Assembly: GCA_002839765.1 (NCBI GenBank)
Contig: PGYR01000025.1
Coordinates: 1-39,726, forward strand
Length of the DNA stretch: 39,726 nt
Origin: Ignavibacteriae bacterium HGW-Ignavibacteriae-4
GTDB taxonomy: Bacteria > Bacteroidota > Ignavibacteria > Kapaibacteriales > UBA2268
Reading direction: 5' to 3'
Below the pieces are notes generated by a model that saw only the letters and a list, made by a program, of their open reading frames with translations, was not told the origin of the DNA and did not search any database. The translations under genes and the position numbers were made by a program. Shown here one piece after another: positions 9,253 to 37,403 of the stretch. Position 1 is the first letter of the stretch. Each line of letters opens with the position of its first letter.

Positions 9253-9597
9253 ATGAACCAATATTTATTAATCTACAGAAATGACGTAAGTCAAGAATTC
9301 AATCCAAGTCCTGAGCAAATGCAAGCAATAATGGAACAATGGGGTGCATGGCACGAAGATCTAGCAAAGGAAGATCGCTTAGTAGCATCAGAAGCTTTAC
9401 AAACTACAGGCAAGATATTAGCTCCCGATAACGTAGTAACTGATGGACCTTATGTAGAAGCTAAAGAATTAGTCGGTGGATTCACACTGATAAAAGCAGA
9501 GTCTATGGATAAAGCAATTGAGCTATCAAAAGGTTGCCCAATACTTGCAAGTGGCGACAAGATAGAGATAAGAGAAGTAATGAAATTTGAATTTTAA
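9253..9597 (+). CDS. YCII/DGPF-domain protein
   Basis: 114 aa. A single YCII-related fold with the hallmark DGPYVEAKELVGGF (64-77), the DGP(F/Y) motif. The N-terminal strand YLLIYRND and the helix EQMQAIMEQWGAWHEDL are typical of the family. DGPF proteins are often encoded beside ECF sigma factors; none is visible here. Enzymatic activity is proposed only for some YCII relatives, so no reaction is assigned. A strong GAGGTGG site precedes the ATG. Twelve bp separate it from a second YCII-like gene, so the two form a pair. Confidence 0.87.
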   Translation: MNQYLLIYRNDVSQEFNPSPEQMQAIMEQWGAWHEDLAKEDRLVASEALQTTGKILAPDNVVTDGPYVEAKELVGGFTLIKAESMDKAIELSKGCPILASGDKIEIREVMKFEF

Positions 9598-9609
9598 TAA
9601 GGAGCAATA

Positions 9610-9942
9610 ATGAAAAAGTTTATAGTAATATATCATGCACCAGCGGAAGCAATGGAAATGATGGCAGACGCTACTGAAGAACAGAAAATGGAAGGCATGA
9701 AACCTTGGTTTGATTGGAAAGATAAAGTTGGAGACAAGTTAGTGGACTTCGGTTCTCCTCTATGTGGAAGCTCTAGACTATTGCCTGATGGTACTAGTGT
9801 TCCTAGTACTAAAGAAGTAACTGGATACTCTATAATCCAAGCAACCGATATGGATGAAGCGAAAACCCTACTATCAAGTCACCCCCACCTACAATGGACT
9901 GGTGGTTGCGACATAGAAGTACACGAATGTATGCAAATGTAA
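9610..9942 (+). CDS. YCII-like protein, partner of upstream DGPF gene
   Basis: 110 aa. It begins KKFIVIYHAPAEAMEMM and has a GYSIIQATDMDEAKTLLSSHPHL segment matching the second half of the YCII fold (strand-helix ending in a His-Pro-Xaa-Leu turn). The DGP motif of its neighbour is replaced by VPSTKEVTGYS. A GGAG site lies upstream of the ATG. The two proteins may form a heteromeric pair, given YCII proteins usually assemble as dimers; that is inferred. The transcript ends at the terminator at 9969-10001. Confidence 0.82.
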   Translation: MKKFIVIYHAPAEAMEMMADATEEQKMEGMKPWFDWKDKVGDKLVDFGSPLCGSSRLLPDGTSVPSTKEVTGYSIIQATDMDEAKTLLSSHPHLQWTGGCDIEVHECMQM

Positions 9943-9968
9943 TTCATCTCTAGAAAATTAAGATAAAC

Positions 9969-10001
9969 AAAACCCGATGATTAAATATTATTGGGTTTTT
10001 T
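9969..10001 (+). terminator. Intrinsic terminator of the YCII pair
   Basis: Arms AAAACCCGATGAT (9969-9981) and ATTATTGGGTTTT (9987-9999) pair over 13 bp with two G-U pairs and a five-base loop, continuing into T. It belongs to a set of three similar CCCAATAAT-type hairpins in this region (also at 10956 and 12539). Confidence 0.85.
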
Positions 10002-10009
10002 AAAAATAA

Positions 10010-10041
10010 TTTGGTTTGCATTACAAACTATATTATGTTTG
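10010..10041 (+). promoter_or_regulatory. Bacteroidota-type promoter of the winged-helix module
   Basis: TTTG (10010-10013), a 20-bp spacer and TATGTTTG (10034-10041) match TTTG-N19..21-TAnnTTTG exactly. The ATG is 31 bp downstream. The -7 box overlaps the right arm of the palindrome at 10019-10046. Confidence 0.75.
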
Positions 10042-10046
10042 TAATG
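10019..10046. promoter_or_regulatory. Palindromic operator over the -7 box
   Basis: CATTACAAAC (10019-10028) and GTTTGTAATG (10037-10046) are perfect 10-bp inverted arms with an 8-bp spacer. The palindrome fills the promoter spacer and covers the -7 element, so a bound dimer would block RNA polymerase. The obvious candidate protein is the winged-helix regulator encoded second in the same transcript (10638-10931), giving negative feedback; this link is inferred. Confidence 0.7.
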
Positions 10047-10072
10047 TTGTTTAACTTATTTGGATAAAAATT

Positions 10073-10636
10073 ATGGGAAATATTAGTGCGAAAGAAAGTA
10101 TTGATATAATTTCAGAGTCAATACTAAATGCGAAAGAGAATCTGAAATCACAAAGCTTTTATTATATACTTTGGGGATGGTTATCAATTCTATCAGCGCT
10201 ATCTGATTATGCATTGTTAAAATCAGGTGAACTCAAATGGCATTTTCTTCCTTGGATTATAATAATGCCGATTGGTGGTATTATTACAAGCGTTGTCTCT
10301 AAGAAAAAAGATAAAGAAAAAGGCTTTAGAACACATCTGGAAGTATTTTTAAAATCAATGTGGATAGTGATTGCGTTTTCTATGTTAGTAGTTGTCTATA
10401 TATCTGTATATATTGGAATCAACCCCGTAGTACTAACTTTACTAATCGCAGGTATGGGTACTTTAGTTTCTGGGTTAACTATGAAATTCAAACCTTTAGT
10501 TTTCGGAGGAGTAGTTTTCTTCGTAATTTCGCTAACGACTCTATATATAAATAATGAAAATGCATATTTATTATATGCCTTAGCAATAGTGATTGGATAT
10601 TTGATACCGGCTTATAAATTAAAACACGAAAAGTAG
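10073..10636 (+). CDS. Multi-pass membrane protein of a regulator-linked pair
   Basis: 187 aa. A soluble start (SAKESIDIISESILNAKENLKS) is followed by about five to six transmembrane helices (YYILWGWLSILSALSDYALL, FLPWIIIMPIGGIITSVV, a short charged KKKDKEKG loop, then three more). Similar proteins stand directly before a winged-helix regulator in many Bacteroidota. No transport or enzyme motif was recognised. The downstream regulator starts 2 bp after this stop, and both follow the palindromic operator. A membrane sensor or stress target of that regulator is possible. Confidence 0.8.
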   Translation: MGNISAKESIDIISESILNAKENLKSQSFYYILWGWLSILSALSDYALLKSGELKWHFLPWIIIMPIGGIITSVVSKKKDKEKGFRTHLEVFLKSMWIVIAFSMLVVVYISVYIGINPVVLTLLIAGMGTLVSGLTMKFKPLVFGGVVFFVISLTTLYINNENAYLLYALAIVIGYLIPAYKLKHEK

Positions 10637-10637
10637 A

Positions 10638-10931
10638 ATGTATGAAAATCTGGATAAAGTTCTAAATCAGCAAGTAAGATTGGCTATTATTTCATTTTTG
10701 ATCAAAGTTGATTCTGCAGACTTTAAACATTTAAAGAAAATAACCAAAACTACACAAGGCAATCTAAGTCACCAACTTAAAGTGTTGAGTGAAGCTGAGT
10801 ACATTATTATAGATAAATCTTTCGAGAATAATTACCCGAAAACTACTTGCCGAATATCAAAGAAAGGACTAACCGCTTTTGAAGAATATGTTGAAGCAAT
10901 GAAAAGCTATTTGAATATGGATGAAAAGTAA
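10638..10931 (+). CDS. Winged-helix transcriptional regulator (HTH_34 type)
   Basis: 97 aa made up almost entirely of a winged helix-turn-helix. NQQVRLAIISFLIKVDSADF is helix 1, HLKKITKTTQGNLSHQLKVL is the helix-turn-helix with the recognition helix at NLSHQLKVL, and KTTCRISKKGLTAFEEYVEA is the wing plus the last helix. This matches the MarR/ArsR-related family HTH_34. It has no metal-binding cysteines (one Cys only, in the wing). It follows the membrane protein gene by 1 bp and probably represses the promoter carrying the 10-bp inverted arms. A terminator lies directly after it. Confidence 0.9.
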   Translation: MYENLDKVLNQQVRLAIISFLIKVDSADFKHLKKITKTTQGNLSHQLKVLSEAEYIIIDKSFENNYPKTTCRISKKGLTAFEEYVEAMKSYLNMDEK

Positions 10932-10955
10932 ACTCTAATTCAAAGTTTAGATAAT

Positions 10956-10988
10956 AAAACCCAATAATTAATAATTATTGGGTTTTTT
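10956..10988 (+). terminator. Intrinsic terminator of the winged-helix module
   Basis: Perfect 15-bp arms AAAACCCAATAATTA (10956-10970) and TAATTATTGGGTTTT (10972-10986), then more T. The right arm is the beginning of a 32-bp direct repeat that recurs at 12543. Confidence 0.88.
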
Positions 10989-11004
10989 ATTATATTGTGA
11001 AAGT
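10973..11004 (+). repeat. 32-bp direct repeat, copy 1
   Basis: 32 bases, from AATTATTGGG through TATTGTGAAAGT, are identical to 12543-12574. The copy contains the right half of a terminator and a TATATTG stretch that could act as part of a promoter for the following gene. The two copies bracket the GT-C-like gene. Confidence 0.85.
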
Positions 11005-11036
11005 GCAACCTAATTAATACTATAAATTTGAAAATT

Positions 11037-12503
11037 ATGAAGAAAAATCAAACTCTTAATTATAGCTTATTTTTTTTGGTAATTTCAGCTTCATTATTAT
11101 TATTAACTAAATATTTTGAGAGTGGAGATAAATATTTAGCATTTTTTGATGATGATTTTTATTATTACATACAAACTATAAAACAAACCTTCAAATCAGG
11201 TTTTATAACTTTTAATGGAATTGTAGTAACGAATGGTTTCCATCCACTATGGTTTTGGTTGTTAACTATACTATCAGTAATACTAGGGTTTGGAAAGGGA
11301 TTGTTCATAGTTGTAAATATAATTACAATTTCGTTATCTGCAGTTGTTTTTAGTGAAAGTCATAAACTGTTAACTGACAAATTTCAGTTAGAGGAATACT
11401 ATTCTTTAGCTTCATCATTATTTGTAAGTTTCATATATCTCTTGATTGGTAAAGGCGGAATGGAAGTAATAATAACCATTCCATTGATAATATATTTATT
11501 GAATCTATTGACTAAAGATGAATCAGTTTCAAGTTTTAAAATTGGACTAGTCTATTCATTGTGTTTCTTATCAAGACTGGATAGTATAATACTCCTAATA
11601 TTGTTAACTATTTATATAATAAAGTTCCGAAAAGGATTTAATTTCACAAAATTTTTAATAGGACTTATTCCTTCTGCTTTTTACCTCCTCTCAAATCTAT
11701 TCTTTTATCATACATTGATGCCTATATCCGGGATGGCAAAACAACTTAAAAATTCTTATTGGCCAGTAACGAATACAATTGAATCTCTAATTTCATTTAA
11801 TCCTAACCATATAATATATTCATTAATTCCTATTTTCTGCATATTCATTAGTATCATATTACTAATGAATAAAAGGATTATGTCTCGGATTAAGGTACTA
11901 TCAATAATTTCCATACTATTTCCTTTAGTTTTGATTTTGTTTAACTCTATTGTTAGTGGATGGGGGTTTTGGCCTTGGTATTACTATATTTTTATTCCCT
12001 CTCAACTAATGTTTTTTATCCTTTTTGCACCTTACATAAGGGGCAATAAGAAAACACTATGGGTTATGATTGTTATTTTTATACTATGTTGGTCGTTTGG
12101 CTTTGGTATTTTCAAGAAGGGAATACATTACGACAACTATAATGGTGCAAAAGGAATTCAAGAATTCAGTATCGATAAGAAAGGAGTATATGCTATGGGC
12201 GATAGAGCTGGATTAGTTAGTTTTTTGATAGAAAACCCTTTGATACAAATGGAAGGTTTAGTCATGAACAAACAGTTTGTTCATGACCTAAAAAGTAATA
12301 AACTACTGAAATTACTGAATATGTACGATGTCAATTATTATATTGCTAACAATCCAAACAGAATTAATAATTCTAAATGGTTCGTACAGGATCCATATAA
12401 AATTCACCCTTCTCAAATTGTTAGTTCTGATACTATTTACTCAGTTCCTTATGATTCTGTTATAGTCAAGACATGGAAGTATTATATTTTTAAGATGAAG
12501 TGA
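11037..12503 (+). CDS. GT-C-like integral membrane glycosyltransferase candidate
   Basis: 488 aa from the ATG at 11037; an in-frame TTG lies three codons earlier but is less likely. About ten to twelve hydrophobic helices. After the first helix comes an outward loop with acidic residues FFDDDFYYYIQ (Asp38-40), the position where GT-C transferases (GT39/GT83-like) carry their catalytic acidic residue, then NGFHPLWFWLL. The C-terminal ~110 residues are a small soluble domain (GVYAMGDRAGLVSFLIENP). Such enzymes move sugars from polyprenyl-phosphate carriers to lipids or proteins on the outer face. The acceptor is unknown. It stands alone, its base composition is lower in GC than its neighbours to the eye, and it is flanked by 32-bp direct repeats, which suggests acquisition or insertion as a unit. 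Confidence 0.72.
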   Translation: MKKNQTLNYSLFFLVISASLLLLTKYFESGDKYLAFFDDDFYYYIQTIKQTFKSGFITFNGIVVTNGFHPLWFWLLTILSVILGFGKGLFIVVNIITISLSAVVFSESHKLLTDKFQLEEYYSLASSLFVSFIYLLIGKGGMEVIITIPLIIYLLNLLTKDESVSSFKIGLVYSLCFLSRLDSIILLILLTIYIIKFRKGFNFTKFLIGLIPSAFYLLSNLFFYHTLMPISGMAKQLKNSYWPVTNTIESLISFNPNHIIYSLIPIFCIFISIILLMNKRIMSRIKVLSIISILFPLVLILFNSIVSGWGFWPWYYYIFIPSQLMFFILFAPYIRGNKKTLWVMIVIFILCWSFGFGIFKKGIHYDNYNGAKGIQEFSIDKKGVYAMGDRAGLVSFLIENPLIQMEGLVMNKQFVHDLKSNKLLKLLNMYDVNYYIANNPNRINNSKWFVQDPYKIHPSQIVSSDTIYSVPYDSVIVKTWKYYIFKMK

Positions 12504-12538
12504 ATTTGTAATTAACCGTCCAACTTTAGGGGTTAAGT

Positions 12539-12558
12539 CCCAAATTATTGGGTTTTTT
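12539..12558 (+). terminator. Intrinsic terminator of the GT-C-like gene
   Basis: CCCAA (12539-12543), loop ATTA, TTGGG (12548-12552), then six T (12553-12558). The stem is shorter than in its sister hairpin at 10956, because only the right half lies within the repeated segment. Confidence 0.72.
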
Positions 12559-12574
12559 ATTATATTGTGAAAGT
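12543..12574 (+). repeat. 32-bp direct repeat, copy 2
   Basis: Identical to 10973-11004. The copies start 1570 bp apart, and the copy ends 23 bp before the next ATG (32 bp for copy 1). Confidence 0.85.
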
Positions 12575-12597
12575 ATGAATAAATCTAAGTTAAATTT

Positions 12598-13032
12598 ATG
12601 AAAAAGATTTTTCTAGTATTCTTTCTTACTATCTCATTCGTTTTTTCATCTGAAGAGTCTTATTGGATTGTATTTCAAGGTGGAATCGCTGCAACACCAA
12701 GTAGTTCTGTTAAAGAGATGGATGAATTAGTAGAAGATAAAGATATTGATGAAATAAGAGAACTTCTTTTTTCGGATGATGTTGCACTAAAGGGACTATC
12801 CGTTAATGTATTAGAAATTTTATATGAAATGAATATAATTGATTTGGATTCGTTGGTACTAAATCAAATTAAAAGACTATATACTTCAAAAGAAGAATTG
12901 AAGCTCCTCTATGGGTGTGATAATTTCTACTCTGTAACTTTAGAAGAATATCTTAATAATGATCATGGATTTAGAAATACAGCTAAAGAAAGATATACAA
13001 ATCTAATTGATGAATTCTACTTAAATGAATAG
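12598..13032 (+). CDS. Exported protein with HEAT-like helices, unknown
   Basis: 144 aa with a signal peptide (MKKIFLVFFLTISFVFS/SEE). The mature part is acidic and helical. DKDIDEIRELLFSDDVALKGLSVNVLEILYEMN looks like one or two HEAT/armadillo-type helix pairs of the kind found in 'HEAT repeat' periplasmic proteins (written here in full only to residue limits: key parts are IRELLFSDD and LKGLSVNVLEIL). No catalytic motif. The end overlaps the start of the PH-domain gene by 8 bp, so the two are probably co-translated. Function not recognised. Confidence 0.68.
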   Translation: MKKIFLVFFLTISFVFSSEESYWIVFQGGIAATPSSSVKEMDELVEDKDIDEIRELLFSDDVALKGLSVNVLEILYEMNIIDLDSLVLNQIKRLYTSKEELKLLYGCDNFYSVTLEEYLNNDHGFRNTAKERYTNLIDEFYLNE

Positions 13033-13612
13033 CTACAACTACATAGACCCACGATCTGAAATCATAGACCAAATAGAGGGTGATGAGAGATTGCTCTGGG
13101 CAGACAAGCCGGCGAGAGGAATAAAGTTCAGAGCAACTGATATTTTCCTTACGCTTTTCAGCATATTTTGGCTCGGATTCTCCATATTTTGGACTTATAT
13201 GGCTATGGATGCGAGTATTCTATTTGCATTATTTGGAACACCCTTTTTATTAATTGGTGTTTATTTGCTAATTGGTCGGTATTTTTTTGATGCTATTTCA
13301 AGAAAAAATACAGTTTATGCACTCACTAATCGAAGAATAATTCAAAAATCTGGGATGCTCTCTAAAACATATAAATCAGTATTTCTTGAGAATCTGCCAA
13401 GTTTATCATACACCGAAAAACCAGACGGTAGCGGTGATATTAGTTTTGGACAGACGATAGAAAGTTTCAAGAAAAGAGACAGAAGAAACAATCAAGATTT
13501 CCCAATAACTCGAATTGAATTTATAGCTAACGCACGTAGTGTCCATAATAAAATAGCTGATGCGAAGAGCAAAGTCCGAGTTAATGATAATACAACAGAA
13601 ATGAAATGGTAA
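13025..13612 (+). CDS. Membrane-anchored bacterial PH-domain protein
   Basis: 195 aa. Residues ~1-30 (ERLLWADKPARGIKF) resemble the start of YdbS/YdbT-like PH proteins. Two transmembrane helices follow (about 41-62 and 66-86), then a bacterial pleckstrin-homology domain beginning YALTNRRIIQKSGMLSKTYK and including LENLPSLSY. The Y-x-L-T-x-x-R pattern is characteristic of the bPH_2 family. The role of such domains in bacteria is poorly known; they are thought to work at the inner membrane. It overlaps the preceding exported protein and is followed after 3 bp by the TMEM175-like gene, so it is part of one transcript. Confidence 0.83.
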   Translation: MNSYNYIDPRSEIIDQIEGDERLLWADKPARGIKFRATDIFLTLFSIFWLGFSIFWTYMAMDASILFALFGTPFLLIGVYLLIGRYFFDAISRKNTVYALTNRRIIQKSGMLSKTYKSVFLENLPSLSYTEKPDGSGDISFGQTIESFKKRDRRNNQDFPITRIEFIANARSVHNKIADAKSKVRVNDNTTEMKW

Positions 13613-13615
13613 TAA

Positions 13616-14191
13616 ATGACTAAAAATAGATTAGAAGCGTTCAGTGATGGTGTATTAGCAATCATAATTACAATTATGGTTTTGGAGCTAAGACCGCCGG
13701 AGAATACTGATTTACAATCCTTACTCGCTGTTGCACCATTTTTTATAAGTTATTTAGTCAGTTTTATTTATATCGGTATTTATTGGAATAATCATCATCA
13801 TCTTTTCCAGATAGTGGAGAAAGTCAATGGTAAAATACTATGGGCAAACCTCCATCTTTTATTTTGGTTATCTCTTGTACCTTTTACAACAGCTTGGATA
13901 GGAGAGCATTTCACCTCCTCATTGCCCGTATTAGCTTATGGGACTATACTACTAATGTGTGCCATAGCATATACTATATTGCAAACACAGATTATTGCAT
14001 TTCACGGTGTCGATTTCAAATTGAAAAATGCTATTGGTAAAGATATAAAAGGAAAAGCATCAATTATTATGTATCTGATTGGTATAATTACATCCTTTTA
14101 TATAATTTGGATTTCCGTTCTATGCTATGTCTTAGTAGCTATTATGTGGTTCATCCCAGACAAAAGAATCGAAAACAATATTGATAAATAA
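13616..14191 (+). CDS. TMEM175-family potassium channel-like protein (DUF1211)
   Basis: 191 aa, about six transmembrane helices. Helix 1 has the family signature RLEAFSDGVLAIIITIMVLE: the F-S-D in the first helix lines the pore of bacterial TMEM175 channels. NNHHHLF and WLSLVPFTTAWIG are also typical. Bacterial members form tetrameric, weakly selective K+ channels in the inner membrane. The gene lies 3 bp after the PH-protein gene and directly before a DUF1801 gene whose ribosome site touches its stop codon. A role in ion balance is inferred from family only. Confidence 0.9.
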   Translation: MTKNRLEAFSDGVLAIIITIMVLELRPPENTDLQSLLAVAPFFISYLVSFIYIGIYWNNHHHLFQIVEKVNGKILWANLHLLFWLSLVPFTTAWIGEHFTSSLPVLAYGTILLMCAIAYTILQTQIIAFHGVDFKLKNAIGKDIKGKASIIMYLIGIITSFYIIWISVLCYVLVAIMWFIPDKRIENNIDK

Positions 14192-14201
14192 GGAAAAAGC
14201 A

Positions 14202-14657
14202 ATGAGAATAGAATCAAATAGTCCAGAAGAGTACATCTCAAAATTGCCTGACGACAGAAAAGAGGCAATGACAAAACTAAGAAAAACCATAAAGGATAAT
14301 CTCCCGAAAGGTTTCAAAGAAGTGATGAGCTATGGAATGATTGGTTACGTAGTGCCACATACCCTTTATCCGGATGGATATCATTGTTCGCCTGAGCTAC
14401 CACTCCCCTTTTTAAGTATCGCCTCACAGAAGAATTTTGTTGCGTTGTATCACATGGGTATATACGCTGATAAAGAATTACTCGATTGGTTCGTAGCTGA
14501 ATACCCCAAGTATGTAAAAACAAAGCTTGATATGGGAAAGAGCTGTATTCGGTTCAAGAAAGTAGAAACTATACCTTTTGATTTAATCGCTGAACTCTGC
14601 ACTAAAATGACTGCACAGCAATGGATTAATCTATATGAAAAAAATTTAAAAGGATAA
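14202..14657 (+). CDS. DUF1801 (YdhG/YjbR-fold) protein
   Basis: 151 aa from the ATG at 14202, which has AAGGAAAAAG just upstream; the earlier in-frame ATG at 14181 lies inside the TMEM175 gene and has no ribosome site. DUF1801 features are SPEEYISKLPDDRKEAMTKL, GFKEVMSYGMIGYVVP, LPFLSIASQKNFVALYHMG and CIRFKKVETIPFDLI. The family has the YdhG fold with an iron-chaperone-frataxin-like shape and no proven activity. It sits between the channel gene and a VOC gene, with 3 bp to the next start. Confidence 0.9.
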   Translation: MRIESNSPEEYISKLPDDRKEAMTKLRKTIKDNLPKGFKEVMSYGMIGYVVPHTLYPDGYHCSPELPLPFLSIASQKNFVALYHMGIYADKELLDWFVAEYPKYVKTKLDMGKSCIRFKKVETIPFDLIAELCTKMTAQQWINLYEKNLKG

Positions 14658-34344: not shown

Positions 34345-34379
34345 AAAAAAATGGCCACCCTTTGGGCAGCCATTTTTTG
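34345..34379. terminator. Bidirectional terminator hairpin, copy 1
   Basis: The stem ATGGC/GCCAT with an inner CCC/GGG pair and a two-base internal mismatch (34351-34373) has six T on the plus side and A on the other side, so it can work both ways. It ends the minus-strand operon. It matches the hairpin at 37381-37403 at all but two positions. Confidence 0.8.
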
Positions 34380-37373: not shown

Positions 37374-37403
37374 AAAAAAAATGGCCGCCCTTTGGACAGC
37401 CAT
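37374..37403 (-). terminator. Intrinsic terminator of rho, copy 2 of the repeated hairpin
   Basis: The stem at 37381-37403 (ATGGC...GCCAT) is followed on the minus strand by seven or more T (opposite 37374-37381). It differs at two positions from 34351-34373. It lies 26 bp after the rho stop. Confidence 0.82.

Follow-up and report, generated by a model that had tools for sequence, protein, structure and literature searches.

Is a gene that lies between two perfect 32-nt direct repeats an inserted, exchangeable unit, and if so, from what were the repeats made? The question is raised by one region of the window, by which we mean the whole stretch of DNA that was analyzed (39,726 nucleotides; contig C104 of G000, the 3.36-Mb draft genome of the source organism). 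A first-pass annotation of this DNA had proposed that the GT-C-like gene between the repeats is an added cassette. We compared the locus with three congeners (G001, G002, and G003) and with other parts of the G000 genome. In our judgment, the slot probably reflects the insertion of a gene with duplication of the target. This reading draws on the repeats themselves, on the differing occupancy of the slot in the congeners, on a similar pattern elsewhere in the genome, and on the identity of repeat and target at three other loci.

Repeat copies and flanking features

As first annotated, the sequences at 10973-11004 and 12543-12574 are identical: they are direct repeats that match at 32 of 32 positions, with their starts 1570 nt apart. 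Within 9500-14500, this is the longest exact repeat whose copies are at least 250 nt apart; the corresponding length in 300 dinucleotide shuffles was 10-17 nt. Identity drops immediately outside the repeat borders, to 8 of 40 positions on the left and 17 of 40 on the right. The features of the region are as follows.

9969-10002, forward strand: terminator T1, which matches the terminator at 10956 with 88% identity over 34 nt and forms the left border of a neighboring two-gene bracket
10073-10636, forward strand: gene for a 187-aa protein, hydrophobic by eye, no Pfam match
10638-10931, forward strand: gene for an HTH_34 winged-helix regulator (PF13601, from Pfam)
10956-10986, forward strand: full terminator hairpin of the left joint (from sequence and folding)
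10973-11004, forward strand: repeat copy A, with the terminator right arm, a T tract, and promoter-like TATATTGTG at 10991-10999 (presumed function)
11037-12503, forward strand: passenger gene for a GT-C-like membrane protein, 488 aa from the ATG, 9 hydrophobic segments
12543-12574, forward strand: repeat copy B, the same 32 nt; sequence from the passenger side, with ACCGTCCAA in it, takes the place of the hairpin's left arm
12598-13032, forward strand: gene for a 144-aa accessory protein, overlapping the bPH start
13025-13612, forward strand: bPH_2 domain gene, the conserved anchor, found in all three congeners (72-76%)

The right arm of a strong hairpin (10950-10992, -15.8 kcal/mol, z -4.4) falls within copy A. 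Next to copy B, other sequence stands in place of the left arm, and the hairpin there is weak, with 5 bp (12530-12562, -5.0 kcal/mol, z -0.2). Each repeat had been described as half of a terminator joined to the 5' region of the next gene. Both copies do contain the right arm and the promoter-like box, but copy B falls short of a full terminator, and the gene that follows it is the 144-aa gene overlapping bPH, with the repeat upstream of that gene.

The 32-nt repeat thus reads as the right half of a predicted intrinsic terminator followed by a promoter-like box, whose function as a promoter is presumed from its sequence. The -7 element of Bacteroidota-type promoters is TAnnTTTG, and we take the TATATTGTG box to be a near-match to it. 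This element occurs in 57 of 231 upstream regions of G000, versus 34 on the opposite strand and 25 in reversed sequence. The joint of G002 carries TATATTTG, which is a full match.

With no mismatches allowed, a 24-nt core of the joint occurs in the four genomes twice in G000, twice in G002, once in G003, and not in G001, always at this locus. A search of the 3.36 Mb of G000 for a 22-nt core with up to two mismatches added one site (C76:37392, two mismatches). We also considered whether the repeats reflect a terminator style shared throughout the genome, and rejected this candidate because, in the four genomes, the mismatch-free core has no occurrence outside the locus.

Other repeats in the window are of different kinds. 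The longest exact repeat of the whole window is 52 nt and comes from the near-identical 3' ends of two tandem Ig/Por_Secre_tail paralogous proteins at 15-2769, which are 57% identical. Farther along, a terminator-like pair (34345-34373 and 37375-37403; 93% over 29 nt) lies around four genes, encoding 228, 155, 379, and 147 aa.

Passenger gene and its surroundings

The passenger is the only gene between the repeats, with a reading frame from the ATG at 11037 (earliest possible start, TTG at 11028) to 12503. Its protein has no Pfam match and no PDB match, and its NCBIfam match to the LA_3751/LA_3752 putative glycosyltransferase is weak (E 1.2e-4, 21 bits against a cutoff of 200). A two-sequence AlphaFold model had a mean pLDDT of 39 and was unusable. 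These four sources give no firm assignment as a GT-C glycosyltransferase, and we refer to the protein as putatively GT-C-like. It was matched in 9 of 60 genomes, G000 included. A foreign composition of the gene was considered and rejected: its GC content is low (28.1%, 6th percentile), and its codon usage is native-like (75th percentile). Among the 31 window proteins scanned, Pfam (E 0.001) gave no match to a recombinase, integrase, or transposase, and there are no phage-related Pfam matches near the passenger.

The hairpin of T1 (9960-10004) is also strong (-14.0 kcal/mol, z -4.6). The gene for the 187-aa protein and that for the HTH_34 regulator lie between the similar terminators at 9969 and 10956, so that one bracket directly adjoins another. 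The locus had been described as a single bracketed gene; one gene does lie between the 32-nt repeats, but a second bracket, with two genes, is immediately upstream. The 187-aa protein has a match in none of the 35 other relatives searched. The 144-aa protein was matched in one of the three congeners (G001, 76%) and in none of 32 further relatives (1 of 35 in all). This narrow distribution of both proteins marks the stretch before bPH as a region of turnover.

The slot in three congeners

None of the three congeners has the GT-C-like gene in this slot; the G001 genome has no GT match, and its contig with this locus stops 449 nt before the orthologue of the window gene at 12598-13032. In G002, a PIN toxin gene (PF13470) and, upstream of it, a 69-aa frame lie between two copies of the joint, directly before bPH. 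This frame has no Pfam match and looks like an antitoxin. G003 has one copy of the joint directly before bPH, after a 179-aa gene, and no passenger. The genes found before bPH are, then, the GT-C-like and 144-aa genes in G000, the PIN pair in G002, the 179-aa gene in G003, and an 84-aa and the 144-aa gene in G001. The left anchor, an ADH gene, is present in G000 and G002, truncated in G003, and off the contig in G001. In G003, the ADH reading frame (L029 7784-8083, C13) has just 99 codons, a further sign of turnover before bPH.

The presence of different passengers in the slot would agree with an exchangeable cassette, as the first-pass annotation had supposed. The relative it had asked for, with one repeat and no gene, exists in G003, and its opposite, the gene and both repeats at the same place in all relatives, was not found. 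The single joint of G003 could be either the state before insertion or the product of a deletion, so that gain at this particular locus is a direction that we infer.

Comparison of the joint copies gives some indication of their history. The right-hand copies of G000 and G002 have the left flank ACCGTCCAA in common; in both genomes, the left copy has the fuller hairpin and the right copy the weaker one. The common ACCGTCCAA hints at one older duplication followed by exchange of passengers. However, the shared part of the copies clusters by genome and not by position, except in the last five columns, where the left copy of G002 equals G000. Copy A matches a G002 copy at 29 of 32 positions and the G003 copy at 28 of 32, which makes similarity a poor clock for the duplication.

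One further finding, together with the native-like codon usage of the passenger, makes the cassette reading less clear-cut. G002 encodes a GT homologue (58%) between its ADH and YCII genes, just upstream of and outside the bracket; the family was thus already near the slot. A second G002 homologue (38%) and a pair in G003 (39-40%) are each on another contig. In G001, 38 nt left over from a bPH 5' end stand before the 144-aa gene. They share 95% identity with G003, and the intact bPH start of G001 matches G002. Identity to G002 is 77-92% across bPH and 94-100% from about position 1500 of the contig. We take this mosaic as evidence that recombination with a G002-like donor occurred in G001, on a contig that is short (3,478 nt) and has 0.72 given as coverage in its name.

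Filled and empty sites at other loci

Similar brackets elsewhere in G000 could be compared with the corresponding sites in the congeners. At the flagellin gene, two copies of the terminator (53 of 55 positions identical) lie around a 431-aa sorting-domain protein in G000, and one same-strand copy follows the flagellin gene in all three congeners, which favors gain as the direction of change. At a dehydrogenase E1 gene (L049 8960-11147, C75), two terminator copies (31 of 32) surround an NgoPII-type restriction-modification (R-M) system consisting of a C5 methylase (PF00145) and an endonuclease (PF09521). Both congeners without the R-M system, G001 and G003, have one copy. G002 has the same R-M genes at this position with a single terminator copy; a passenger is sometimes present, therefore, without duplication.

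A third example (L102 6220-6897, C86) involves an outer-membrane efflux protein (PF02321). Here a ParE toxin gene and a gene for a 64-aa partner lie between the intact 3' end of the efflux-protein gene and a doubled copy of that end (81 of 83). The two congeners without the pair, G002 and G003, have one copy of this end; in G001, the pair is present and the right side is off the contig. Two other loci are less informative. The 3' end and terminator of an NAD/FAD oxidoreductase gene bracket a GNAT gene in G000 (88% over 99 nt), and none of the congeners has the GNAT gene at this site; we regard the case as weak because G001 and G002 have other sequence there and the terminator of G003 is distantly similar (72% over 58 nt). 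At L043, which encodes an AAA_14/DUF4143 ATPase, the neighboring gene used as query matches the congeners at only 28-29% and partially.

We scored copies as identities in the best local alignment on the better strand. The two G000 copies share 32 of 32 positions at the joint, 53 of 55 at the flagellin locus, 31 of 32 at the dehydrogenase locus, and 81 of 83 at the efflux locus, versus 23-29, 47-51, 25-28, and 51-70 positions, respectively, for a G000 copy and the congeners. At the efflux locus, the lower congener scores are partly explained by the sequence after the stop codon, which the congeners do not share; what they share is mainly the coding 55-56 nt (89-93% in G002 and G003). That every congener copy falls below the second G000 copy at all four loci fits the doubling of a local target. 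Judged by the congeners, the repeated sequence at the flagellin, dehydrogenase, and efflux loci is the target's own predicted terminator or gene end. The likeness between the G000 copies suggests that the doubling occurred inside this lineage.

Frequency of brackets

We surveyed 41 stretches of G000, one of which was the window; they total 610 kb and contain 284 intergenic regions. Intergenic pairs with 40 bits or more in common were retained and called local if they were up to 5 kb apart and distant otherwise; before counting, 24 dispersed-repeat pairs and 5 local pairs with paralogous genes were dropped. The search retained 18 of 553 local pairs versus 5 of about 39,600 distant pairs, where 0.3 local pairs were expected from the share of such pairs. 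At a 35-bit cutoff, the numbers were 18 local and 10 distant. One array (L053) accounts for three of the 18 pairs, two have copies in common (L043 7642/8253/9219), and one (L039 17346) is IS200-like, so the total corresponds to about 14 separate cases, five of which were checked in the congeners. The bracketed genes include the NgoPII-type R-M system, the ParE toxin pair, the AAA_14/DUF4143 ATPase, and the GNAT gene.

The same procedure retained two pairs in 320 kb of G002 (with contig C54 outside the sample), one in 103 kb of G003 (four sampled stretches and two already-known loci), one in 200 kb of G035, none in 200 kb each of G008, G037, and G045, and none in 50 kb of E. coli. The density is thus highest in G000, in comparison with samples that are small (200 kb each for four of the genomes). 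A simple stem test marked 8 of the 18 local and 6 of the 10 distant pairs. Because the scan covers intergenic stretches and 30-45 nt of gene ends, and so is biased to terminators, these numbers establish no terminator preference.

Some repeat structures encountered in the surveys resemble other elements. At L037 3800-11100 (G000 C15), an array of dispersed hairpins (CCCCTCTTTCGCGTTGCTTAAAGAGGGG and relatives) surrounds several genes and resembles a separate repeat family. The IS200-like case (L039 17346-18220, G000 C25) is a transposase gene (PF01797) flanked by 189-nt repeats that are 88% identical. At L137 8230-9563 (G002 C81), two perfect 74-nt repeats containing a terminator-like hairpin flank the gene for a 185-aa protein, which has a sub-cutoff match to Y1_Tnp (E 0.001).

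Proposed origin and competing explanations

Insertion with duplication of the target would account for the locus as follows. The landing site would have been the joint, a terminator followed by a promoter-like box, that separates the upstream gene from the bPH operon. Entry of a passenger would double 32 nt of this joint, so that the passenger begins behind the full terminator, where it could use the box of the joint, and ends at a half copy, which would provide a weak terminator for the passenger and a promoter-like box for the 144-aa/bPH operon. The 32-nt repeats would then permit loss or exchange, with the outcomes seen as the GT-C-like gene in G000, the PIN toxin pair in G002, and nothing in G003. 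For the molecular step, we favor illegitimate recombination or template switching, which would double the neighboring stretch with no dedicated recombinase involved.

The timing could differ: the joint might have been duplicated once in an ancestor, followed by turnover of passengers, gene conversion, and loss of a copy in G003. This variant of the same explanation, which we think somewhat unlikely, would account for ACCGTCCAA left of copy B in both G000 and G002 and for the fuller left and weaker right hairpins of both genomes, but the grouping of copies by genome in all except the last five columns makes it depend on gene conversion or a second duplication. Import from congeners is an unlikely origin for the slot as a whole. 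In this process, incoming DNA would undergo homologous recombination in one neighboring gene and an illegitimate join close to where the homology stops, with a short stretch doubled as a result. The G001 mosaic, with its bPH remnant close to G003 and its intact start and downstream sequence close to G002, is in line with such events, and the G002 R-M genes with one terminator copy fit plain exchange; immunity arrays of Vibrio cholerae are so explained in the available text of PMC5361080. However, copies at four G000 loci are 96-100% alike, and each congener copy is lower, which indicates that the doubled DNA is local and not from a known congener; the G001 contig also has the shortness and stated coverage given above. 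Such import accounts well for G001 and may account for some of the remaining observations. On this proposal, the slot would be a minimal mobile element, with exchange through homologous recombination. The proposal overlaps with insertion accompanied by target duplication, and both can hold.

A site-specific mobile cassette (an integron, an Xer module, or transposon ends), whose passenger carries the repeat as its attachment site, would also place direct repeats with a hairpin around single genes, and toxin-antitoxin and R-M passengers are consistent with it, as is the IS200-like transposase in 1 of the 18 bracketed cases. We consider it very improbable, and have rejected the attachment-site or integron reading, because the repeats differ between loci and at three of them are the target's own sequence, single in insert-free congeners. 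In addition, the mismatch-free joint core occurs nowhere else in the four genomes, and the 31 window proteins scanned lack a recombinase. Tandem duplication, chance, a shared terminator style, and assembly error are together scarcely credible. Similar terminators do exist (C76:37392, with two mismatches, and 9969 in the window), but the repeat far exceeds the 17 nt reached in shuffles, and the same kind of bracket is present in the separate assembly of G002. Tandem duplication was rejected because the GT protein has no similarity to either neighbor.

In the 610 kb of G000, five brackets have an insert that is missing in at least one congener, and terminators are recurrent targets in a scan that favors them. 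Filled and empty sites can be compared side by side within one genus, with many cases in one genome. It is conceivable, although quite unlikely, that an active lineage-wide pathway places single genes or pairs at terminators, doubling the terminator each time, with hairpins as fragile or preferred entry points. If true, the genome would grow through insulated transcription units that can each be removed, with no transposase or integrase involved. If the elements are functional, the box of copy A would serve the passenger from behind a strong terminator, and copy B would provide a weak end and a box for the 144-aa/bPH operon. Recombinational removal between the copies would leave a strong terminator and a box, an arrangement that G003 has. 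Brackets could therefore make gained genes easy to lose or swap, which is a testable link between terminators and gene turnover.

Comparison with known systems

Several known systems resemble the locus in part. Phage morons are genes with their own promoter and terminator added between others; the present gene would likewise have been added with promoter-like and terminator elements, but here the box and the terminator come from the host joint. Integron cassettes have common attC sites and an IntI integrase, whereas the brackets described here differ by locus, and no integrase was found among the 31 window proteins. The minimal mobile element was reportedly introduced by Saunders and Snyder in 2002. 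In the accessible part of PMC3898611, the term covers different whole-gene cassettes that lie between conserved genes across strains and are exchanged by homologous recombination. Different cassettes before the same conserved bPH gene are found here too; unlike that system, the bracket here is a 32-nt repeat at the joint itself. For homologous exchange in the flanking genes, the support comes from the mosaic in G001. The Vibrio cholerae immunity arrays, attributed to homology-facilitated illegitimate recombination in the available text of PMC5361080, are alike in their stacked insertions and in a leftover gene end such as that of G001, and unlike in that the stretch doubled in G000 is local and not the allele of a known donor.

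According to the available parts of PMC2884548, direct repeats, most of them below 30 bp, flank 10-18% of the variable segments in E. coli, S. aureus, and S. pyogenes; some strains have empty versions, and the repeats are read as possible signs of deletion or slippage. The word "terminator" is absent from its main text. Among the literature matches listed, none describes natural genes bracketed by duplicated or repeated terminators, and PMC2991278 and PMC8880864, in the portions available, concern engineered constructs. In the engineered E. coli circuits of PMC2991278, as its available portion reports, a gene between homologous terminators, longer than those here, was lost within about 20 generations. 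By analogy, loss of the GT cassette through the 32-nt repeats is plausible.

The locus is best classed as insertion with long target duplication, which is already a known category. The first description is said to be that of Nobusato et al. (2000, Gene 259:99). Insertions of this kind were found by comparing H. pylori strains and were tied to R-M genes, as stated in the available parts of PMC1643837, PMC3031569, and PMC3874152. Although named in 2000, the process has no settled mechanism in the parts of the literature covered. According to the same partial sources, such inserts are recognized against a related genome, have target direct repeats of variable length, often contain R-M genes, and are unlinked to a known mobile element. 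Here, the orthologous site lacks the GT gene in all three congeners, and no transposase or integrase was found among the 31 window proteins. The target is single when empty and double around the insert at the joint (G003), the flagellin locus (three of three congeners), the dehydrogenase locus (two of two), and the efflux locus (two of two), and the duplications are variable in length (32, 32, 55, 83, and 99 nt). The accessible text of PMC3874152 gives a length on the order of 100 bp; the range here is 32-99 nt, and the 32 nt of the window lie at its short end. The brackets of G000 also differ from those insertions in that the doubled target is a terminator or gene end, and in that their passengers include toxin-antitoxin genes, an ATPase gene, a GNAT gene, and the GT-C-like gene.
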